Origin: a virus
Direction: 5' to 3' (one strand)
IMG/VR virus record: IMGVR_UViG_3300030060_007206
Coordinates: 1 to 31,925 of that record
Length of the DNA stretch: 31,925 nt
Both the position numbers and the translations under genes were made by a program. Position 1 is the stretch's first letter, and each line of letters starts with the position of its first letter. This document shows, one piece after another, positions 22,961-31,877 of this stretch. Under the pieces are notes generated by a model. That model did no database searches and had not been told where the DNA came from. It was given only the letters and a program-made list of their open reading frames with translations.

Positions 22961-24247
22961 ATGATACCACAATTAATTAATGAGTTGTATGATGCAAAGG
23001 AATTTGCTGCAGTACAAAAACTTGCTATTGCTTATTTGAATTATGAGGAAGATGATCAAATTCTAGGTCTTTTAGCTGGAACCTACTATGAAGATAAGAA
23101 GTTTGATAAAACTTTAGAATGTTTGGATAAATTACCAGAAACACCTTATCTTCTTATTAACAAAGCTAGTTGTTTATATTTTTTACATAGAGCACCTGAA
23201 GCGGAAGAGATTATGAGATCTCTTCCGACACTTGATGATGGGCATAAAATAGATTTGTCTTTATATTTAAATGCACAAGGTAAATTTGATGAATCTAGAG
23301 AAGTTTTAGCACCGATTGCAGATACTAATGTAAGAGCATCATTTAATTATGGATGGTATCTATTAGCAGAAGATAAATTGCAAGAAGGATATAAGTATAT
23401 TCGTGCAGGTGCGATAGATGAATTAAGAGTATGGGGTCATGAGTGGATACTAAGGAAGGATTATAATATAGGTGAACAGTATAGGTGGAATGGTGAGACA
23501 GTAGATACCATTGCTTTTTATCTTGAAGGGGGTATGGGTGATGGAATGATATTTGTTCGTTATGTAGAAAATTTTAAAAAATATTGTAAGACAGTAAAGA
23601 TATTTGCTCCTAAATCATTAATACCTTTATTAGAAGAATGTGGATATGAGAATGTATATACACCTGAATATATTACAAAGACTGGTTGGGACAAATATGT
23701 ACCTGCTATGTCTGCTCCATATTTTCTAGGGTTAAATCATCCTCGTGAAGGAGTAACTTTCCCATACTTAAAGAGGAAAGCAAATCCCGTTGATGAGATG
23801 AATAGGATTGCTAATGGTAAGAAAAAGATATGTATTCGATGGAGAGGTAATCCTCAATTCGAACATGAACAATTTAGAAGTGTTCCTGTTGAGGGTTTAT
23901 TGGGACTTGAGAAGTATGGACAATTGTTTTCGTTGCAAATAGAGGATAGTAATCTTCCTAAGAATGCAAATGTATGGGATCTTTCTCATTTGATTCATGA
24001 TTGGCGTGATACGTATGATGTTATTGCTGAGTCTGATTTAGTAGTTACATCATGTACTGCAGTTGCACATCTTGCTGGTGCAATGGGGGCAAAGGTTGTT
24101 GTTCTTCCTCCTTTAGTGCCATATATAACGTGGAATGTTAAAGAAAATACTTGGTATCCTGATAATGTTGTCGTTATTCAACAAATGGAGTATAATGGTT
24201 GGGATAAGACGATTGAAAAATTACATGATTTTATGAAAGATTTCTAA
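22961..24247 (+). CDS. TPR-domain glycosyltransferase (GT9/heptosyltransferase-like)
   Basis: A 428-residue protein in two parts. Residues 1-180 are helical repeats of TPR type (LAIAYLNYEEDDQILGLLAG, LINKASCLYFLHRAPEAEEI, YLNAQGKFDESREVL). Residues 185-428 follow the GT-B fold of the TPR-linked glycosyltransferase family 9: EGGMGDGMIFVRYV (nucleotide-sugar loop, Gly190-Asp194 region), KICIRWRGNP, an RSVPVEGL strand, LVVTSCTAVAHLAGAMGAKV and WYPDNVVV near the end. GT9 members use ADP-heptose to extend lipopolysaccharide, and related enzymes glycosylate proteins. With ADP-heptose-type synthesis genes in the same operon, heptose transfer is a reasonable guess. A TPR arm suggests a protein acceptor. 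It is the first gene of the cassette and shows no clear ribosome binding site. Confidence 0.75.
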   Translation: MIPQLINELYDAKEFAAVQKLAIAYLNYEEDDQILGLLAGTYYEDKKFDKTLECLDKLPETPYLLINKASCLYFLHRAPEAEEIMRSLPTLDDGHKIDLSLYLNAQGKFDESREVLAPIADTNVRASFNYGWYLLAEDKLQEGYKYIRAGAIDELRVWGHEWILRKDYNIGEQYRWNGETVDTIAFYLEGGMGDGMIFVRYVENFKKYCKTVKIFAPKSLIPLLEECGYENVYTPEYITKTGWDKYVPAMSAPYFLGLNHPREGVTFPYLKRKANPVDEMNRIANGKKKICIRWRGNPQFEHEQFRSVPVEGLLGLEKYGQLFSLQIEDSNLPKNANVWDLSHLIHDWRDTYDVIAESDLVVTSCTAVAHLAGAMGAKVVVLPPLVPYITWNVKENTWYPDNVVVIQQMEYNGWDKTIEKLHDFMKDF

Positions 24248-24912
24248 TGAAAAGAGCTATACTTACATATTATAATGATGCTATAGATAAAAACCTTTTA
24301 TTTTTACATCAAAGAGTATTACAGAAATATAATACTGTTGCAGATTATAAACCATTATTCTGTAAAGTAGGAGAAGATCAAATAATACATTATCAAGCAT
24401 TAGATTATGGTGCATCTGCTTTATTTGAAGAAGGATATGATAGTGTACTATTTTTAGATGTTGATTGTATACCATTAAATTCTTATGCATTAGATTATAT
24501 CTTTACACAAGCAGAGAAGAATATTATAATTGGTAATGCTCAACGATCTATGCATATTGATAATGATGAGCATATGTTTGTTGGATCTTCATGTTTCTGT
24601 ATAAACAGAACCAACTATGATAAGTTTGGTAGAAGATCATTTGCTCCTGATCATATCAAAGCAGATACGTGTGAATATTATACTTATGATGCAGAGGAGC
24701 AAGGAGTAGAAGTTGAGATATTCATGCCAAAATCTTACATCAGAGATCCTTTTGGTGGTAAATGGAATCTTGGGAAGGATCGTGGTAGTTATGGCATTGG
24801 AACTACATTTGAAAATTCTTTAGGTGTTGAGATGTTCTTTCATTTATTTTCTAGTCGAGAAAATGTATATAATACTTACTTTTATGATAAGTGTGAGGAA
24901 ATATTAAAATGA
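24247..24912 (+). CDS. GT-A type glycosyltransferase
   Basis: A 221-residue protein with the start MKRAILTYYNDAIDKNLLFL and a strand-DxD motif FLDVDCIPLNS with Asp71-Val-Asp73, the metal and nucleotide-sugar site of GT-A folds. Further conserved-looking parts are MHIDNDEHMFVGSSCFCINR (about 98-117) and FGGKWNLGKDRGSYGIG. Small enzymes of this type occur in glycan clusters of marine T4-like phages. The sugar donor and acceptor cannot be told. Its ATG overlaps the stop of the TPR gene (TAATG), and the stop overlaps the next start (ATGA). Confidence 0.65.
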   Translation: MKRAILTYYNDAIDKNLLFLHQRVLQKYNTVADYKPLFCKVGEDQIIHYQALDYGASALFEEGYDSVLFLDVDCIPLNSYALDYIFTQAEKNIIIGNAQRSMHIDNDEHMFVGSSCFCINRTNYDKFGRRSFAPDHIKADTCEYYTYDAEEQGVEVEIFMPKSYIRDPFGGKWNLGKDRGSYGIGTTFENSLGVEMFFHLFSSRENVYNTYFYDKCEEILK

Positions 24913-25643
24913 ATTATTATAATTCTTATGATATGGATGTGGGGGCAACTTATATTATCTCTATTAAGGGTAATGAGGTTTCTGAGAAACTTACTCAACA
25001 ATGTTTTGAATCATGTAAGAAAGTAGGTCAACCTAATGTTATAGTTGTGCCTGGTTTTGATGCTACAAATTCTCCTATATCGACTCAAGATCATAAGCTT
25101 GGAAAACCAATAGGGGAGATAGGAACTATTAAGGTTCCTGAAGCTTTAAAAGACCAAGCATTTCTTAATTTTTTAAGATTGCGTAGATCTGATTTATTAA
25201 TGACTCAGATTGCATGTTTCCTTTCTCACTATTCGTTGTGGTGTCTATGTTTATCTCAGGATAAACCAATTGTTATTTTAGAACATGATGCTGTTATGAT
25301 TAAACCATATCTTAGGCATAGTTATTATAATAATATTGTTTATTTGGGAGGTAGTGAGCAAGTAGATGGAAGTATGCCTATGGATGATACTATTCCTCCA
25401 CATGCAACAGACCATAAAGGACTGGATAGATTTATTTGTAGAGCACATGCTTATTCTATTGATCCTGCTATTGCAAAGAACTTGGTTGCATATAGTATTA
25501 ATCATGGTATAATAACCACTGCAGATGCAATGATAAGATCCGATATGTTTGGGATAGTTCAAGATGATCTTTATGCATACGAAGATAATTATGGGTTATC
25601 GACAATTAGAGAAGATGGAACTGCATTAACTGAATATAAATGA
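24909..25643 (+). CDS. Glycosyltransferase family 25-like enzyme
   Basis: A 244-residue protein. It has the layout of family 25 (lipopolysaccharide-type beta-galactosyltransferases): an N-terminal YIISIKGNEVS strand, TQIACFLSHYSLWCLCL (residues about 99-115) matching the G-C-x-x-S-H-x-x-x-W motif, then PIVILEHDAVMIKPY with Glu125-His126-Asp127 standing in for the usual E-D-D, and a later RAHAYSIDPAIAKNLV segment. Donor and acceptor are not known. The His in place of Asp in the acidic motif is notable but still leaves an acidic pair. It is in the same overlapping operon (ATGA on both sides). Confidence 0.7.
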   Translation: MNYYNSYDMDVGATYIISIKGNEVSEKLTQQCFESCKKVGQPNVIVVPGFDATNSPISTQDHKLGKPIGEIGTIKVPEALKDQAFLNFLRLRRSDLLMTQIACFLSHYSLWCLCLSQDKPIVILEHDAVMIKPYLRHSYYNNIVYLGGSEQVDGSMPMDDTIPPHATDHKGLDRFICRAHAYSIDPAIAKNLVAYSINHGIITTADAMIRSDMFGIVQDDLYAYEDNYGLSTIREDGTALTEYK

Positions 25644-26305
25644 AAAAGGTAATACACGTACTCAATATTAATAATTTCTTTCCAGAACTTTTTAGGATAA
25701 CATATCCTACTATTAGAGCATATGCAGAGAAGAATGGATATATTATCAATATGATAACAGAGAGAAAGTTTCCAAATTATCCTATCACTTATGAGAAGAT
25801 GCAAGTCTATGAGGATGGTAAAGATAATCAGATGAATGTTTTAGTTGATGCTGACATGTTACTTCATCCAAACTTACCAGACTTTGAAACTTTTTTATCT
25901 GAGGATGCAGTTGCTTTTAATTATGGTTATAATATTAGTGAAAAATATTATACTAATAGAATAAAGTATTTTGTGCGAGATGGTAGAGACGTTGGAATTG
26001 CTACTAATCTTGTTGTTTCGTCACAATTAACTCATGATATTTGGGAACCATTGCCACTCACACCTGAACAAATTGCTGACTTAGCAGTTCCTAATGATGA
26101 GGAACCAAATGAATGGAACCGTGGGTGGGGTCATTATGCTGATGAGTTTGCTTTATCATATAATCTGGCAAAGTATGGTTTAAAGTATCAAGGAGTTCTT
26201 GGTTCTGGTCCTCAACATGATTATGCTATTCATGTTGGCACTGGTGATAAAGAAAAGTCTATAAGAATAGCAAAGGAAACAATGGTGAAATGGAGTAAGT
26301 TGTGA
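25640..26305 (+). CDS. Putative GT-A glycosyltransferase
   Basis: A 221-residue protein with MKKVIHVLNINNFFPELFRI at the start, YEKMQVYEDGKDNQMNVLVD then ADML, giving an Asp70-Ala-Asp72 metal motif, and a later GWGHYADEFALSYNLAKYGL (about 157-176) of the type seen in nucleotide-diphospho-sugar transferases, where a late acidic residue follows the DxD. A His-rich end (GPQHDYAIHVG) also fits, since a late His often helps to bind the metal. Specific sugar unknown. It starts in the previous stop (ATGA) and ends with a GTGA overlap. Confidence 0.6.
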   Translation: MKKVIHVLNINNFFPELFRITYPTIRAYAEKNGYIINMITERKFPNYPITYEKMQVYEDGKDNQMNVLVDADMLLHPNLPDFETFLSEDAVAFNYGYNISEKYYTNRIKYFVRDGRDVGIATNLVVSSQLTHDIWEPLPLTPEQIADLAVPNDEEPNEWNRGWGHYADEFALSYNLAKYGLKYQGVLGSGPQHDYAIHVGTGDKEKSIRIAKETMVKWSKL

Positions 26306-26928
26306 AGATAGCAATTTTCTATCACTTATACCAGACCGAACTGTCTGGTTTAATATATCAACAACAGATGCACAGATTACATGCATCTGGATTGATGGAT
26401 GCGTGTGATTTTATTCATATTGGTGTTGTAGGTGAGCATGAATTATTCTCCCGACCAAAAAAAGCACAAGTTCTTTATAATAGACGATTAACTAAGGATG
26501 AGGGTGAGACGGTAGAGTCTGTATATAGATTTTGTAAGTTGAATCCTAATTATAAAGTATTATTCTTTCATGCAAAGGGAGCAAGTAGACAATTTGTTCC
26601 TCAACTTCATGCATGGAGAATGTTTTTAGAGTATATTGTTATTGATAGATGGAAAGAATGTATCAAAAAATTAAAAACCTATGATGCAGTGGGAGCTAAG
26701 TTGAGGATGCATCCTTCACCTCATTTTAGTGGTAATTTTTGGTGGGCTAATGCAGACTATGTGGCAACATTAGATGAGAGTTTTTTATATACTGATGGAG
26801 AACATGGTAAAATTGATAGAGAGTTGATGATTGGTACTGGAGATAGGTTTGATCCTTGTGATATGCATCATGTACATAAGGAGATGAATATGTATGATAA
26901 AATATTTACAGAAGACAATTATATATGA
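26302..26928 (+). CDS. Putative glycosyltransferase/glycan-biosynthesis protein
   Basis: A 208-residue protein. GTG at 26302 is the likely start because it overlaps the previous stop as GTGA, as the neighbours do. It begins IAIFYHLYQTELSGLIYQQQ. Residues about 84-100 (KVLFFHAKGASRQFVPQLH) and about 133-155 (MHPSPHFSGNFWWANADYVA) match a set of small proteins found in glycosyltransferase clusters, where SGNFWWA is typical. There is no classical DxD, so catalysis is not shown. It could be a transferase of unclassified type. Confidence 0.5.
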   Translation: MKIAIFYHLYQTELSGLIYQQQMHRLHASGLMDACDFIHIGVVGEHELFSRPKKAQVLYNRRLTKDEGETVESVYRFCKLNPNYKVLFFHAKGASRQFVPQLHAWRMFLEYIVIDRWKECIKKLKTYDAVGAKLRMHPSPHFSGNFWWANADYVATLDESFLYTDGEHGKIDRELMIGTGDRFDPCDMHHVHKEMNMYDKIFTEDNYI

Positions 26929-27677
26929 TTAATCAACTCAAATTAAAAAGTGAGTTTACTTCAGGAAAACCATTTCATCATGCAGTTATAGATAATTTTT
27001 TTGATGAAGAGACTGCTATATCATTAAGTCGTGAGTTTCCTGATTATAATTCTGATGTGTGGTATGTATATAATAATCCATTAGAAAATAAAAAAACATG
27101 TAACGTATGGAACTTGTTTCCTAGAAATTTATACTCTACATTTTCTTATTTAAATTCTTCTTCATTTATATCTAAGTTAAAAAAAATTACTGGTATTAAG
27201 AAACTATATCCTGATATTGGTTTGCATGGAGGAGGGTTGCATATACATGGAAAAGGTGGTAAACTTAACATACATCTTGATTATTCTATACATCCTAAGT
27301 TAAAATTACAACGTAAGTTAAATCTTATTGTTTACTTGGGAGAAAATTGGGATCCATCTTGGAAAGGTCAATTAGAATTCTGGTCACCAGATAGAAAACA
27401 ATGTGTAACTTCTATTGATACCTTGTTTAATCGTGCTGTAATTTTTGATACGACGCAAAACTCATATCATGGATTACCTACTCCTCTAGAGTGTCCTGAA
27501 GGGTGTTACAGAAAGAGTATAGCAGTCTATTATCTAACTGATCCTGTAAAGAATTGTCCTATAAATTCAAAGGCAATTTATATTCCTACTGAGGAACAGA
27601 AAGATGATCCTAATATAAATGAAATCATTAATAAGAGGGCAAGTATGGTAACTGTAGACGAGGTTTATCGTGTCTAA
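26925..27677 (+). CDS. 2-oxoglutarate/Fe(II)-dependent oxygenase (prolyl-4-hydroxylase-like)
   Basis: A 250-residue protein with the jelly-roll iron site: His117-Leu-Asp119 (NIHLDYSIH), a distal His182 (NSYHGLP) and Arg196 (CYRKSIAVYY) for 2-oxoglutarate. The segments LNLIVYLGENWDPSWKGQLE and FNRAVIFDTTQNSYHG are standard for this family. It begins PFHHAVIDNFFDEETAISL. Such enzymes hydroxylate proteins, sugars or small molecules. T4-like marine phages carry several with unknown targets. Here it sits inside a glycan cassette, so a sugar or an acceptor residue on a virion protein is a likely substrate. It overlaps the previous gene (ATGA) and the next by eight bases. Confidence 0.75.
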   Translation: MINQLKLKSEFTSGKPFHHAVIDNFFDEETAISLSREFPDYNSDVWYVYNNPLENKKTCNVWNLFPRNLYSTFSYLNSSSFISKLKKITGIKKLYPDIGLHGGGLHIHGKGGKLNIHLDYSIHPKLKLQRKLNLIVYLGENWDPSWKGQLEFWSPDRKQCVTSIDTLFNRAVIFDTTQNSYHGLPTPLECPEGCYRKSIAVYYLTDPVKNCPINSKAIYIPTEEQKDDPNINEIINKRASMVTVDEVYRV

Positions 27678-28071
27678 AACTGTATGGTGTAATGGTACGT
27701 TTGATATCCTACATCCTGGTCACATTCAACTCTTTAAGGTTGCAAGGTCACTAGGTGATAGAGTTATTGTTGCCACGGATACTGATGAGAAGATAAAGAA
27801 AGATAAGGGGGATAATCGACCTGTCAATGATCTTTGTTTTAGAGTAGCAATGCTTGAAGCAATTAAATATATTGATGTTGTGTTGACATTTAATGACAGA
27901 AAAGAACTAGAGGGGTTGATTCAATTATATCAACCTGATATACTATTATTAGGTGATGACTGGAGATATGGTGATGTGGTAGGTAGAGAATATGGTAAGG
28001 AAGTTAGATTCCTACCAAGAGTTGGTGGTTATGCAAGTAGCAACACAATCAAACGGATTCATAACTTATGA
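27670..28071 (+). CDS. hldC: Heptose-phosphate adenylyltransferase-like (HldC / HldE C-domain-like)
   Basis: A 133-residue nucleotidyltransferase. GTG 27670 was chosen because the protein then opens as V/MSKTVWCNGTFDILHPGH with the HxGH site His15-Pro-Gly-His18 at the normal place, and because the overlap with the previous gene is only eight bases. KKDKGDNRPVND (residues about 43-54) fits the K-G-D-x-R-P-V-N motif of bacterial HldE/HldC, and NTIKRI near the end is the family finish. HldC adenylylates heptose-1-phosphate to ADP-heptose. Glycerol-3-phosphate or other cytidylyltransferases share the fold, so the sugar is inferred from the kinase and epimerase next door. Confidence 0.7.
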   Translation: MSKTVWCNGTFDILHPGHIQLFKVARSLGDRVIVATDTDEKIKKDKGDNRPVNDLCFRVAMLEAIKYIDVVLTFNDRKELEGLIQLYQPDILLLGDDWRYGDVVGREYGKEVRFLPRVGGYASSNTIKRIHNL

Positions 28072-28796
28072 AAATATTGTTAATTGGTGATAGTTGTATT
28101 GACAAATATGTTTATGGAGATGCCAAAAGGTTGAGTCCAGAAGCACCTGTTCCTGTGTTAAATTATATTAGGACAACTAAAACGGAGGGAATGGCATGGA
28201 ATGTTTTTAATAATCTAAAAGCTTTTGGTGTTGAAGTTGATATGATCACTCAAGAAGAGAAGATTGTAAAGACTAGATACATTGATAAGAAATCAAATCA
28301 ACAAATTCTTCGTGTTGATGAAGAATATGAGGTTGAAGAATTAAAGTTTGAAAAACCAGAAAATAATTATGATGCTCTTGTCATATCAGATTATAATAAA
28401 GGATTCATAACACAAGAGAAATTATTTGAGATAGTTTATTCGTTTCAAGGTCCAGTATTTGTTGACACTAAAAAGCAAGAAATACCTCATGGATGTTTTA
28501 CTAAAGTAAATGATATTGAATATGAAAATTTAAAAACACCAACAGATAGGTTGATTATAACTAGAGGTGGGAAAGGTGCAGAGTATCAAGGTAAGTTATA
28601 CCCAGCAGAGAAAGTAAATGTCTTTGATGTTGCTGGTGCAGGAGATACTTTCCTTGCAGCATTAGTTGTTGGTTATATACAAACTAAATCAATAGAGACT
28701 GCGATCCCTCTTGCTAATAAAGCAGCAGCAATTGCTGTATCACATGCAGGAACTTATGTATTAACAAAGGAGGATATAGATGAGATATTGTATTGA
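28068..28796 (+). CDS. hldA: Heptose-7-phosphate kinase-like PfkB sugar kinase (HldA / HldE N-domain-like)
   Basis: A 242-residue PfkB kinase. Segments in order match the HldE kinase domain: GDSCIDKYVYGDAKRLSPEA (residues 8-27), PVPVL, QQILRVDEEYE, ALVISDYNKGF, RLIITRGGKGAE, and VFDVAGAGDTFLA with catalytic Asp193. NKAAAIAVSHAGT near the end is also typical. The usual kinase domain is about 310-320 residues, so about 70 are missing, mainly from the middle. The substrate loop, normally G-G-A-A-N, reads TEGMAWN, so one Gly is lost. It may still work. It follows the adenylyltransferase with an ATGA overlap: the two domains of HldE are separate and in reversed order. Confidence 0.7.
   Translation: MKILLIGDSCIDKYVYGDAKRLSPEAPVPVLNYIRTTKTEGMAWNVFNNLKAFGVEVDMITQEEKIVKTRYIDKKSNQQILRVDEEYEVEELKFEKPENNYDALVISDYNKGFITQEKLFEIVYSFQGPVFVDTKKQEIPHGCFTKVNDIEYENLKTPTDRLIITRGGKGAEYQGKLYPAEKVNVFDVAGAGDTFLAALVVGYIQTKSIETAIPLANKAAAIAVSHAGTYVLTKEDIDEILY
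28766..28773 (+). promoter_or_regulatory. Strong ribosome binding site inside hldA, sets the HAD start
   Basis: AAAGGAGG lies within the end of the kinase gene and six bases before the ATG at 28780. It is the best Shine-Dalgarno sequence in the window and supports this start for the HAD gene, which overlaps the kinase by 17 bases. Confidence 0.75.
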
Positions 28797-29118
28797 TATT
28801 GATGGTACGATTTGTAGTCCAACTGTTGGTAGGGATTACCATAAAGCGGAACCTTGGCAAGATCGTATTGCAAAAATAAATAAGTTATATGATGAAGGTC
28901 ATTATATTATCTATTTCACTGCAAGAGCAATGGGTAGATTTTCTGATAAACCTCATTCTATTGCATCTGTATCAGCAGAGGCAGTTTTATTTGATCTTAC
29001 AAAACAACAATTAGATGATTGGGGTTGTAAGTATAACGAATTGATCATGGGTAAACCCCATGCAGATTTATTCATAGATGACAAAGGAATCAACTGTGAT
29101 GACTTCTTCAGAAATTAA
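28780..29118 (+). CDS. Small HAD-superfamily phosphatase
   Basis: A 112-residue protein opening MRYCIDIDGTIC, the HAD motif I with Asp6 and Asp8. YIIYFTARAM (about 46-55) gives motif II (Thr) and LFIDDKGIN near the end gives the acidic motif IV. It lacks the long cap and the cysteine-rich zinc loop of GmhB, the phosphatase that converts heptose bisphosphate in the ADP-heptose route, and GmhB is about 190 residues. It may therefore do the same job with a minimal fold, or act on another sugar phosphate. It overlaps the kinase before and the cupin after, in a tight translation unit. Confidence 0.6.
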   Translation: MRYCIDIDGTICSPTVGRDYHKAEPWQDRIAKINKLYDEGHYIIYFTARAMGRFSDKPHSIASVSAEAVLFDLTKQQLDDWGCKYNELIMGKPHADLFIDDKGINCDDFFRN

Positions 29119-29455
29119 ATATGTAAAAAAAGGATGGGGATTTGAGAAATGGATTGCCAATTCTCCTGAATATTGTGGTAAGCTTTTGTTTATTAGGGAG
29201 AACAAGAGATGTTCGTGGCACTATCATAAATTAAAAGACGAAACATTTTATATTCAATCAGGTATGGTTCATTTGTTTTATGGAGAAACAGATGATCTTT
29301 CAAAAGCAAAGAGTACTATATTAGAACCTGGAGATAAATTTTATGTTTATAGAGGATTGAGGCATCAAATGATTGCATTAGAAGATACAGAACTATTTGA
29401 GTTTTCTACTCAACATTTTGATGAAGATTCGTACAGAGTATTTAAAGGTGATTAA
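29099..29455 (+). CDS. Cupin protein (ManC/phosphomannose-isomerase-type cupin)
   Basis: A 118-residue single cupin. ATG 29099 was chosen over the upstream 29078 because AAAGGA precedes it by about 12 bases and the overlap with the HAD gene drops to 20 bases. Metal-site residues are visible: His41 and His43 in SWHYHKLKDETFYI, Glu48 in the same segment, and the second-motif GLRHQM. The parts VKKGWGFEKWIA near the start and EFSTQHFDEDSYRV near the end resemble the C-terminal cupin of GDP-mannose pyrophosphorylase/phosphomannose isomerase. Probable role: isomerisation or epimerisation of a phosphorylated sugar. A sugar-binding regulator is possible too. Confidence 0.6.
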   Translation: MTSSEIKYVKKGWGFEKWIANSPEYCGKLLFIRENKRCSWHYHKLKDETFYIQSGMVHLFYGETDDLSKAKSTILEPGDKFYVYRGLRHQMIALEDTELFEFSTQHFDEDSYRVFKGD

Positions 29456-29457
29456 CT

Positions 29458-30240
29458 ATGATTATACTAACAGGTGATGAAGGTTTTATAGGGAAAAAGT
29501 TCCTTGAAAAACTATCGGGAAAAGAAGTAATTAAAGTTGAAAAAAGAAACAGTTGGCACTTTCGTAGTTTTAATGAGTGGGACAAGGTAGAACTCATACT
29601 ACATCAAGGTGCTATCTCTGATACTACATGCACTAATCTAAAAGCAATCAATCATTTTAATGTTGAGTTTAGTGAGTGGATATTTGAACAAGCAATAAGA
29701 TATCAAATACCAGTTAAGTATGCATCCTCTGCATCTGTCTATGGCAATCAAGAAGGAATCATCAATCCCCTCAATTACTATGCTATATCCAAAGTCATTA
29801 TGGACTATTGGGTTCTGGATAATATGGATAGATTTGAATTAGTACAAGGATTCAGATACTTCAATGTCTATGGTGATGGTGAAGAGCATAAGGAAGACCA
29901 AGCAAGTCCTGTTCATAAATTTACAAAGCAAGTTAAAGAAACAGGAACACTTAAATTATTTGAAGGGTCTCAAAGTTTCTTTAGAGACTTTATATGCGTT
30001 GATGATGTTGTAGATATTGTTCTGAACAATGATAAACCATCAGGTATCTATGACTTAGGTACAAGCAATCCTACCAGTTTCCAAGAAGTAGGAGAACTAG
30101 TAGCAGACAAATATAATGGTGCTATAGAATATATCCCCTTCCCATTACATCTAAACAATAAGTATCAAAGATATACCTGTGCTAAAAAGGAATGGGATTA
30201 TAAGTTTAAAACAGTTGAGGATTATATTAAAGATAAATAA
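29458..30240 (+). CDS. hldD: HldD-like ADP-heptose 6-epimerase (SDR family)
   Basis: A 260-residue NAD(P)-binding epimerase. The Rossmann motif GDEGFIG (Gly6, Gly9, Gly12), SASVYGNQ, and the catalytic Tyr108-x-x-x-Lys112 (YAISK) are in place. Segments FRYFNVYGDGEEHK, FEGSQSFFRDFICVDDV and GIYDLGTSNPTSFQEVGELV, then IEYIPFPLHLNNKYQRYTCA, follow HldD (RfaD) closely, including the IEYIPFP stretch typical of HldD. HldD changes the C6 configuration of ADP-D,D-heptose to ADP-L,D-heptose and is normally about 310 residues, so this is a compact version. It has an AAAGGTG ribosome-binding sequence and ends the cassette. GDP/dTDP-sugar epimerases are the alternative. Confidence 0.75.
   Translation: MIILTGDEGFIGKKFLEKLSGKEVIKVEKRNSWHFRSFNEWDKVELILHQGAISDTTCTNLKAINHFNVEFSEWIFEQAIRYQIPVKYASSASVYGNQEGIINPLNYYAISKVIMDYWVLDNMDRFELVQGFRYFNVYGDGEEHKEDQASPVHKFTKQVKETGTLKLFEGSQSFFRDFICVDDVVDIVLNNDKPSGIYDLGTSNPTSFQEVGELVADKYNGAIEYIPFPLHLNNKYQRYTCAKKEWDYKFKTVEDYIKDK
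30232..30239 (+). promoter_or_regulatory. Late-promoter-like octamer GATAAATA before the RCC1-type fibre gene
   Basis: GATAAATA overlaps the last codons of the epimerase gene and ends 31 bases before the ATG at 30271. It matches the T4 late box at seven of eight positions and is likely to restart late transcription after the cassette. Confidence 0.4.
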
Positions 30241-30270: not shown

Positions 30271-31206
30271 ATGGCTAAGTTACCAAGAGCACAATTAGTA
30301 GACACTTCAGTTGCAGGACATATAGAGTTTGGTGGTGGAATTAATATAACTGGAGTTGTAACTGCCACTGGTTTTGAAGGAAATACTACGGGTACAGCTA
30401 CTAATTTGACGGGTAATCCTAATATAGTTGGTGCTATTGTAACAGCAACCACATATAGAGGAAGTGGATCTGGAATAACAGGATTAGCAGGAACATCATA
30501 TATTGGACAAACTACTTCTTTTACATCTGCAGCAACATATACGATTGATTTATCTAAAGGAAATGTAGTTCATATTGAGGATGGTGGTTTTAATGGAACT
30601 GCTACAGTAGGATTTTCTAATACTACTACTGGAAGTGGTGAGGTAAGAATTATTAGAAAACCTATATGTGCTAGATGTAACTGTGAAATATATCTTAATT
30701 GGCCTTCAAATATTACTTGGGAAGGAAATGGACAAAAACCTGATAGTGTTTTTAATCCAAGATGTAATAATGCTCAAGAAATAACTTTACTTACTACAGA
30801 TTCTGGTGCAAGTTGGTATGGAAGTGAAACAGTTCGTTCAAATCCAACCACTACTAATAGGTGGGCATGGGGATACGAGTATAGGAAAGGATCGTTTGGA
30901 ATGAACGCCAAATGGGGAGGTCCAGCTGGCAACTGTGCTGCATGTAGTAAGTATTCATCACCAGTTTCTATTGGAGCTTCATGGATGAGTGGTTGTAATC
31001 CATACTCTGAATTTACAGATATACAATGGGGACATTATTATGCTTTAGGTCTTAAAAATGACGGAACAATATGGTCATGGGGTGAGAATAATCAAGGAGA
31101 AATAATACAACGATGTCATATTCAATACCAATTCAAATATGCCATTGCCAAGGATATAAATGGACATGTCTTTCATGGGGCAAAGAAGATGGTGCTCTTG
31201 CTATAG
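30271..31206 (+). CDS. Short tail fibre with RCC1-like propeller, 5' part (frameshifted)
   Basis: 311 codons before a stop in this frame. Residues 1-90 (MAKLPRAQLVDTSVAGHIEF, GVVTATGFEGN, ATTYRGSGSGITGL) are a fibre N-terminus. Residues about 90-195 hold a strand-rich domain with a Cys group (RKPICARCNCEIYLNWPSNI). From about 192, WAWG, YYALGLKNDGTIWSWGENNQ mark RCC1-like repeats. From about residue 278 (base 31104) the frame no longer fits (IIQRCHIQYQ...), while the repeat pattern continues in the -1 frame at 31104-31877. So the true protein was probably about 535 residues, and the last 33 residues here are not original. There is no clear ribosome binding site. Confidence 0.7.
   Translation: MAKLPRAQLVDTSVAGHIEFGGGINITGVVTATGFEGNTTGTATNLTGNPNIVGAIVTATTYRGSGSGITGLAGTSYIGQTTSFTSAATYTIDLSKGNVVHIEDGGFNGTATVGFSNTTTGSGEVRIIRKPICARCNCEIYLNWPSNITWEGNGQKPDSVFNPRCNNAQEITLLTTDSGASWYGSETVRSNPTTTNRWAWGYEYRKGSFGMNAKWGGPAGNCAACSKYSSPVSIGASWMSGCNPYSEFTDIQWGHYYALGLKNDGTIWSWGENNQGEIIQRCHIQYQFKYAIAKDINGHVFHGAKKMVLLL
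31101..31112 (+). other. Apparent frameshift site in the RCC1-type fibre gene
   Basis: Reading ...GENNQGEI in frame one and then NTTMSYSIPIQI in the -1 frame gives an unbroken RCC1 repeat (compare G-E-N-x-x-G-Q-L-G...TTSSxPxQ). The junction lies in AAATAATACA. It needs one missing base or a -1 slip. No standard X-XXY-YYZ slippery heptamer is in frame, so a deletion or a sequencing/assembly error is more likely than programmed slippage. Confidence 0.6.
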
Positions 31207-31877
31207 ATTGTGAGGGAATATTGTGGGGATTTGGTAGGAATTATCAAGCACAGAGATCAGCAGGTCAACTTGGAACTAGTATTAATAATAAGTCTGCTCC
31301 AGCTAAAGTTTGTGCTTCTGGTCTTACTTGGAAAGCTATTGCAATGATGCAATCAGGTTCATTAGGAGTTACAAAGGATGGAAGATTATATTCATGGGGT
31401 TGTGGTCATTATGGCCAAACTGGCAATTCTTCGTGGGCAAATGGCCAAGCTGGATTTCCTTGTTCTCCTAGACAAGTAGGATCTGCGACTGATTGGAAGT
31501 GTGTTTGGGGTGGAGAATATAATGGTGCAGGATTACGAGGAAATAGTTTATATGCATGGGGTTCTCATTCATCTGGAGTAATAGGTTGTAGCGTATCAGA
31601 AAATCAAGGTTGTACTAGTGGAGGTGTTTCTTCACCAGTATCAGTGTTAGGCAATTTTCATTGCAATTTACGATGTCTTCATTATGCAGGAAATTCTGTA
31701 TCTTCAGTAGATTGTTGTGGAAGAATGTGGGTATGGGGATCTAATGAACATGGTAAACTTGGTTTTGTAGGTGATGCATCTGGAAGATCTTCACCACTTC
31801 AGATTATGTGTGATAAAAAATTTGGTGCAGTAGCTGGTAGTATGAATCACCATGCGGCTATTTCTCTAACTTGCTAA
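31113..31877 (+). CDS. RCC1-like Cys-rich beta-propeller, 3' part of the frameshifted fibre
   Basis: The open frame continues the propeller of the preceding gene part. Repeat ends are seen as ILWGFG, LYSWGCGHYGQTG, LYAWGSHSSGVIG and MWVWGSNEHGKLG, each preceded by a 'xxLx(V/I)xxDG'-type turn (GALAIDCEG, SLGVTKDGR, GAGLRGNS, SVDCCGR), and the end is HHAAISL. Counting the two units upstream, about six blades result. RCC1 proteins make a seven-bladed propeller, so the ring may be six-bladed or complete it with strands from elsewhere. It is unusually rich in Cys for a phage fibre. ATG 31113 is only the first Met in this frame and probably not a true start. The role inferred is receptor binding. 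Confidence 0.65.
   Translation: MSYSIPIQICHCQGYKWTCLSWGKEDGALAIDCEGILWGFGRNYQAQRSAGQLGTSINNKSAPAKVCASGLTWKAIAMMQSGSLGVTKDGRLYSWGCGHYGQTGNSSWANGQAGFPCSPRQVGSATDWKCVWGGEYNGAGLRGNSLYAWGSHSSGVIGCSVSENQGCTSGGVSSPVSVLGNFHCNLRCLHYAGNSVSSVDCCGRMWVWGSNEHGKLGFVGDASGRSSPLQIMCDKKFGAVAGSMNHHAAISLTC

Follow-up and report, generated by a model that had tools for sequence, protein, structure and literature searches.

A predicted ADP-heptose gene cassette of T4-like cyanophages with a cupin as candidate sedoheptulose-7-phosphate isomerase

We analyzed the IMG/VR virus record IMGVR_UViG_3300030060_007206 (positions 1 to 31,925, here called the window) and in particular a cassette of five genes that appears to encode a pathway to heptose activated with adenosine diphosphate (ADP). 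The record of 31,925 bases is a fragment of a T4-like phage with genes for tail tube, baseplate hub and tail lysozyme, and among named sequences it is most closely related to marine cyanophages and to marine virus contigs from single cells. The cassette occupies positions 27670–30240 of the plus strand and consists of overlapping or abutting genes for an adenylyltransferase, a kinase, a HAD protein, a cupin and an epimerase (Table 1). The first four genes overlap, and the epimerase gene starts two bases after the cupin gene. The open reading frame (ORF) of the cupin is open from 29078 (125 amino acids to 29455), and the ATG at 29099 is its probable start. The G+C content of the cassette, 33%, is the same as that of the remainder of the record. 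These data confirm the observation of an ADP-heptose-type gene set made earlier from the letters of the window alone (the original prediction): the five ORFs lie in place on the plus strand, all quoted motifs are found (HPGH, KGDNRPVN, RLSPEAPVPV, AGAGD, IEYIPFP and Y-x3-K), and the description of a split HldE in reversed order, with HldC ahead of HldA, and of a compact kinase and epimerase is correct.

Table 1. Cassette genes and neighbouring features of the window.
Feature	Position	Strand	Evidence
HldC-type D-glycero-beta-D-manno-heptose-1-phosphate adenylyltransferase, stand-alone, 133 amino acids, GTG start	27670..28071	+	TIGR02199, HPGH and KGDNRPVN, phrog_7878
HldA-type D-glycero-beta-D-manno-heptose-7-phosphate kinase, compact PfkB fold, 242 amino acids	28068..28796	+	TIGR02198, 4e84, model
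Minimal HAD phosphatase (EcbF/BcbF type), 112 amino acids, putative GmhB stand-in	28780..29118	+	TIGR01689, PDB 9iqw
Metal-site cupin, putative sedoheptulose-7-phosphate isomerase	29099..29455	+	Conservation, HldC fusion, metal motif, 2y0o match, fold
HldD-type ADP-glyceromanno-heptose 6-epimerase, compact SDR, 260 amino acids	29458..30240	+	TIGR02197, 1eq2, residues
2-Oxoglutarate (2OG)-Fe(II) oxygenase overlapping the first cassette gene	26925..27677	+	PF13640, E 4.7e-15
GT25-family glycosyltransferase, possible sugar-transfer neighbour	24909..25643	+	PF01755, E 2.1e-11
TPR protein with weak C-terminal GT9 (heptosyltransferase)-like stretch, candidate acceptor transferase	22961..24247	+	PF01075, E 0.064, residues 352–382, below cut-off

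The three Hld-type proteins were compared with curated profiles, structures and the E. coli enzymes. The best NCBIfam match of the adenylyltransferase is TIGR02199 (E 3.9e-31, 107.8 bits). This protein shares 40% identity with the C-terminal domain of E. coli HldE and retains the HxGH and KGxxRPxN motifs, and its sequence matches in the Protein Data Bank (PDB) are cytidylyltransferase-fold enzymes in general. Assignment as a glycerol-3-phosphate cytidylyltransferase can be rejected by the profile comparison that the original prediction had proposed, since TIGR01518 scores clearly lower at 73.6 bits. The kinase matches TIGR02198 best (E 5.2e-43, 147.4 bits in three stretches), and its best PDB sequence match is HldA from B. 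cenocepacia (4e84). For its predicted structure, with a predicted local distance difference test (pLDDT) score of 92.7, the top seven PDB fold matches are all HldA. Pairwise alignment places D193 on Asp264 of E. coli HldE, and both the catalytic Asp of the GAGD motif and the substrate motif RxSPEAPVPV are present. The epimerase matches TIGR02197 best (E 1.2e-59, 202.1 bits) and E. coli HldD in the PDB (1eq2, 1.5e-36); S91, Y108, K112 and K145 correspond to Ser116, Tyr140, Lys144 and Lys178 of that enzyme in pairwise alignment.

The kinase is about 70 residues shorter than its E. coli counterpart, having lost about 26 residues after 'LKAFG' as well as other loops, and the epimerase is about 50 residues shorter than E. 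coli HldD, with about 30 residues missing from the NAD-binding half. These compact forms are common to the whole phage family. The residue checks and the kinase model indicate that they are intact rather than decayed enzymes, with their predicted active sites kept. On sequence and model comparison, the three predicted proteins belong to the HldC, HldA and HldD families with all checked residues intact. The assignment made in the original prediction therefore holds, and neither the loss of catalytic residues nor the higher scores for other sugars named there as grounds for doubt were found. It is conceivable, although we regard it as unlikely, that these Hld-like enzymes have come to act on a different substrate with seven or six carbons. 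All three scores fall under the equivalog cut-offs (147.4 of 345 bits for TIGR02198, 107.8 of 181.5 for TIGR02199, 202.1 of 274.6 for TIGR02197), the kinase and epimerase domains are shortened, and the phages S-T4 and Sf-CH8 have no epimerase near the set. However, all three proteins find their best matches in one three-step heptose route and retain the checked residues, and the cupin is additionally found together with the HddA- and HddC-type genes of a second heptose route, described below.

Bacterial surface glycans have ADP-heptose as one of their key precursors. In the pathway that we propose, the cupin would convert sedoheptulose-7-phosphate (S7P), an intermediate of the Calvin cycle and the pentose phosphate pathway of the host, to D-glycero-D-manno-heptose-7-phosphate. 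The HldA-type kinase would phosphorylate C1, the HAD enzyme would remove the 7-phosphate, the HldC-type enzyme would add AMP, and the HldD-type epimerase would invert C6 to afford ADP-L-glycero-beta-D-manno-heptose. We consider it probable, if far from certain, that T4-like cyanophages possess in these five genes a self-contained cassette for nucleotide-heptose synthesis leading from S7P to ADP-heptose, with the cupin in the role of GmhA and the HAD enzyme in that of GmhB. The ADP-heptose-type reading of the original prediction is supported. For the window itself, a pathway of the guanosine diphosphate (GDP) type can be rejected because the kinase is a PfkB and not a GHMP protein, although this variant does occur in other phages.

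Scanning IMG/VR with the kinase revealed at least 574 relatives. We counted genes in 60 loci that were chosen by the kinase and extend at least 4 kb to either side of it, near-identical copies included. The adenylyltransferase and the cupin are present in all 60, the HAD gene in 54, the epimerase in 45, and a GmhA-like gene in none. Hence, the cupin accompanies the kinase without exception in these loci, also in those in which HldD was not detected. When E. coli GmhA was used as a phmmer query, no match was obtained among the ORFs of 95 phage records including the window. The 31.9 kb fragment contains no SIS-type GmhA (SIS_2) protein, as had been noted originally; the cupin and the HAD protein do not have the SIS fold, and the SIS domain and TIGR00441 match that mark GmhA are absent from the cassette proteins. 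The order adenylyltransferase, kinase, HAD, cupin recurs in P-SSM2, S-CAM1, S-CAM3, S-SSM7 and Sf-FS3, in some with other genes intervening, and the epimerase follows further along, encoded on the other strand. In S-SM2 and P-TIM68, all five genes are present in different orders, surrounded by glycosyltransferase genes. The cupin and HldC are joined in a single ORF of 261–263 amino acids in three divergent contigs (L083, L086 and L087). The original prediction had placed a HAD protein and a cupin between the named genes; both are present and, beyond that claim, both are conserved members of the unit and each is fused to a nucleotidyltransferase in a relative.

The epimerase gene sits downstream on the opposite strand in 36 of the 60 loci and shares the strand of the cassette only in the window, its near-twin L018 and a few rearranged loci, which suggests a local inversion.

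The cassette itself is already known in cyanophages and is less surprising than the original prediction supposed. Sullivan et al. (2010, PMC3037559) reported that T4-GCs 304, 305, 307 and 308 co-occur in P-SSM2, S-SM2 and S-SSM7 and described them as lipopolysaccharide (LPS) genes that are probably functionally linked; whether they work was not known. The new point is the probable replacement of GmhA by the cupin.

Across 33 sequences of the cupin family, H48, H50, E55 and H96, which form an HxH(4)E...H metal site, are invariant, as are K35, K53 and E108. The family profile matches the D-lyxose ketol-isomerase 2y0o over almost its full length (E 3.7e-7). The predicted structure (pLDDT 94) finds D-lyxose isomerases, a phosphomannose isomerase from Thermococcus and the capsule enzyme CapF as fold matches, and C33, K35, H48, H50, K53 and E55 align with L-ribose isomerase. 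Conversion of S7P to D-glycero-D-manno-heptose-7-phosphate is the same type of reaction as the interconversion of xylulose and lyxose or of fructose and mannose. The conserved linkage of the cupin, its gene fusions, its fold and a complementary distribution lead us to infer that it is a non-orthologous counterpart of GmhA. Our searches of open-access papers, which do not extend to most subscription journals, found no description of a cupin linked to S7P or ADP-heptose. RefSeq names this family (phrog_7851; P-SSM2 PSSM2_312 and homologues) 'cysteine dioxygenase'; its profile and gene neighbours suggest a sugar isomerase instead.

Alternatively, the cassette could make ADP-heptose with a host GmhA providing the first step, and the cupin could be a later tailoring enzyme such as a sugar-nucleotide epimerase. 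GmhA-like proteins do occur in 44 of 201 genomes of the Prochlorococcus family (Cyanobiaceae), and the cupin domain of CapF, one of the enzymes matched by the fold, works on sugar nucleotides. On the other hand, most genomes of this family have neither a GmhA-like nor an HldE-like protein, the latter being found in 27 of 201; 25 of these 27 also contain a GmhA-like match. The constancy of the cupin, which equals that of the kinase also in loci in which no HldD was found, speaks against a tailoring role too. In addition, the core set lacks the 4,6-dehydratase that RmlC-type epimerases would need, and the cupin retains a metal-type HxH(4)E...H site which, to our knowledge, RmlC enzymes do not have. 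We therefore judge this explanation to be improbable. Two reviews state that the LPS of cyanobacteria (PMC4390846), and that of Synechococcus (PMC4377996), lacks heptose and 3-deoxy-D-manno-octulosonic acid. Considering these reports and the small number of HldE-positive genomes, the phage probably brings the pathway. The original proposal that the phage makes or enlarges a heptose pool thus remains plausible in its first part and is less so in its second.

The cupin also occurs in other gene settings. In the Synechococcus phages Bellamy and SynMITS9220M01, it lies between HddA- and HddC-type genes with overlapping ends. The best curated match of the GHMP kinase is HddA (279–287 bits), and HddC is the best or second-best match of the nucleotidyltransferase (about 60 bits). 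Homologues of these three genes occur in the same order in AG-345-E15. The ADP- and GDP-heptose routes share S7P isomerization, and the phosphatase step is performed by GmhB in both. The presence of the cupin in GDP-type sets is consistent with the shared isomerase step; the phosphatase step is shared too, but the cupin would not be a phosphatase. SynMITS9220M01 contains two heptose-like sets (L177:7943-17635), the second of which comprises a GHMP kinase, a SIS isomerase, a HAD::nucleotidyltransferase fusion and an epimerase, so that each set has one isomerase candidate.

From bacterial and archaeal genome records we took 30 cupin-bearing loci. A Parcubacterium (L119 of genome G020) has the order GT9, cupin, HldA, HldC::GmhB, HldD, interrupted by a single ORF on the other strand that separates HldA from HldC::GmhB. 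No SIS_2 (GmhA-family) protein was found in this genome. A Marinimicrobia locus (L098) combines HldA-HldC, HldD, cupin and GmhB, with SIS_2 encoded elsewhere. Among 238 genomes of the Parcubacteria class, nine contain HldA: three of these have the cupin and no SIS_2 (G015, G020, G102), three have GmhA and no close cupin (G057, G087, G125), and three have neither. This association is suggestive only, because G015 and G020 were found via the cupin and G102 alone is independent. In the order of genome G022, 39 of 41 genomes contain HldE, 36 the cupin and four a GmhA-like protein. Two genomes (G287, G294) show the order HldE, dehydratase, cupin, and G288 has a second HldE-type gene just upstream of the cupin. 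The four GmhA-like proteins in this order (L153, L154, L155, L163) adjoin apparent hydrogenase-maturation genes hypD/hypE, as identified by eye. A 'Prochlorococcus' cupin locus (L113) is surrounded by phage-like genes and was not counted as a host gene.

These settings also bear on the idea that the cupin is a mannose-6-phosphate (phosphomannose) isomerase. The Thermococcus enzyme among the fold matches would agree with this function, and so would the GDP-mannose-dehydratase-like gene that usually adjoins the cupin in the order of G022, where this role is a live rival. Nevertheless, the core phage cassette contains neither a mannose-1-phosphate guanylyltransferase nor a phosphomannomutase, three contigs encode a fusion of cupin and HldC, and the cupin is the sole isomerase candidate beside HldA, HldC::GmhB and HldD in one Parcubacterial operon. 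We consider a mannose-specific function less likely still than the alternatives discussed above. Since the isomerization chemistry of mannose and heptose is the same, dual specificity is possible.

The HAD protein matches TIGR01689 (E 1.3e-7) and PDB entry 9iqw (1.2e-11), which makes it an EcbF/BcbF-type protein. In the alignment of the HAD motifs (DIDGT/DxDGT, T, K, DD), D6, D8, T10, T47, K92 and D101 are invariant and D100 is nearly so. In view of these phosphatase motifs and the lack of a SIS domain, we reject a function as phosphoheptose isomerase, which is the RefSeq name of the protein. This name is carried by family phrog_1238 (P-SSM2 PSSM2_311, L001:20719-21063, and homologues) and may mislead annotation widely. 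A query with E. coli GmhB gave no match to the cassette HAD. Clear GmhB homologues beside the set are found only in L083, L086 and L087 and in the cellular loci L098 and L119; in the first three the GmhB homologue adjoins the set where the HAD gene is missing. This complementary distribution, together with linkage, fold and fusions such as that in SynMITS9220M01, suggests that the HAD enzyme is a non-orthologous stand-in for GmhB, a case that is weaker than that for the cupin.

On balance, we think the odds lie modestly in favour of a broader proposal: that this undescribed cupin family is a second, non-homologous S7P isomerase that replaces GmhA in cyanophage ADP- and GDP-heptose routes and in some HldE- or HldA-positive bacteria without GmhA, and that cyanophages in this way equip their hosts, in most of which no heptose kinase gene is seen, with a complete heptose pathway. 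Several points weigh against this proposal and against the pathway on which it builds. The top PDB matches of the cupin profile by E-value are quercetinase and oxalate decarboxylase, which share the local cupin motif, and cupins are catalytically diverse. Few genomes enter the Parcubacterial tally, in which two of the three positives had served as seeds; the surveyed genomes are often incomplete, and the adjacency to the dehydratase gene in the order of G022 would suit a mannose route. The HAD family is found in 385 phage records, mostly of non-cyanophages and including many enterobacterial phages, and so has no specific tie to heptose. In four divergent contigs (L089, L091, L095, L096), the neighbourhood of the set revealed neither HAD nor GmhB. 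To this can be added the Hld scores under the equivalog cut-offs. Since the window is a fragment, a GmhA may be encoded elsewhere in the phage genome. Finally, the enzyme activities, the final product and the acceptor are predictions from sequence, models and linkage.

In the window, P-SSM2, S-CAM1 and S-SSM7, the set is located in a tail-fibre block near oxygenases, a carbamoyltransferase (in the three named phages) or GT25; in S-SM2, P-TIM68, S-T4 and Sf-CH8 it is located in a sugar island close to tRNA or hli genes. Superinfection exclusion has been suggested for P-SSM2 (PMC2984593). The heptose may equally serve to decorate virion fibres or to change a host-surface glycan, for example in superinfection exclusion. 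The only heptosyltransferase candidate in the window is the GT9-like stretch of the TPR protein, whose match is sub-threshold and was not accepted. Collagen-like fibres as the glycosylation target, an idea raised by GT25 and the 2OG oxygenase, were also rejected, as the tail proteins examined contain no G-X-Y runs. The TPR and GT25 genes belong to a block at 22961–26928 with two or three further unassigned proteins that have DxD-like motifs. This block is conserved upstream of the cassette (L014, L018, L019, L021, and partly in L102, a contig from a bacterial metagenome-assembled genome) and possibly encodes transferases that use the sugar. Downstream, two ORFs in different frames overlap (30271–31206 and 31113–31877), the first with weak RCC1 matches and the second with similar repeats by eye. 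They resemble pieces of one tail protein, which suggests a frameshift or an assembly error.

Given the absence of heptose from cyanobacterial LPS stated in the two reviews, a full viral route would place a foreign sugar on virions or on the surface of the host. Should the cupin indeed be the missing isomerase, a gap in an established pathway would be filled, an enzyme would be predicted for bacteria that apparently lack GmhA, and the two recurrent RefSeq names discussed above would be corrected.

Several known systems resemble the cassette. The cupin-type D-lyxose/D-mannose and L-ribose ketol-isomerases (2y0o, 7nzo, 5avp) share the cupin fold, the HxH(4)E motif and a conserved Lys with the phage cupin, and they catalyze C1–C2 aldose–ketose chemistry like that proposed here. 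In contrast to these enzymes, the phage cupin is shorter (about 118 residues), shows about 22% identity by structure alignment and constitutes a separate family. The GDP-D-glycero-alpha-D-manno-heptose pathway (GmhA, HddA, GmhB, HddC) starts from the same S7P isomerization, whereas the window has a PfkB kinase and HldC, as in the ADP route, in place of a GHMP kinase and HddC. The LPS gene clusters of P-SSM2, S-SM2 and S-SSM7 (T4-GC 303–308) contain the same five families, adjacent in P-SSM2 and S-SSM7, as also in S-CAM1, and close by in S-SM2. The window is a further member of this group, for which the cluster papers assign neither the pathway nor the cupin. With the E. coli ADP-heptose pathway (GmhA, HldE, GmhB, HldD) the cassette has in common homologues of HldA, HldC and HldD whose active-site residues correspond. 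It differs in that HldE is split with its domains in reversed order, and in that unrelated or distant proteins would take the places of GmhA and GmhB.

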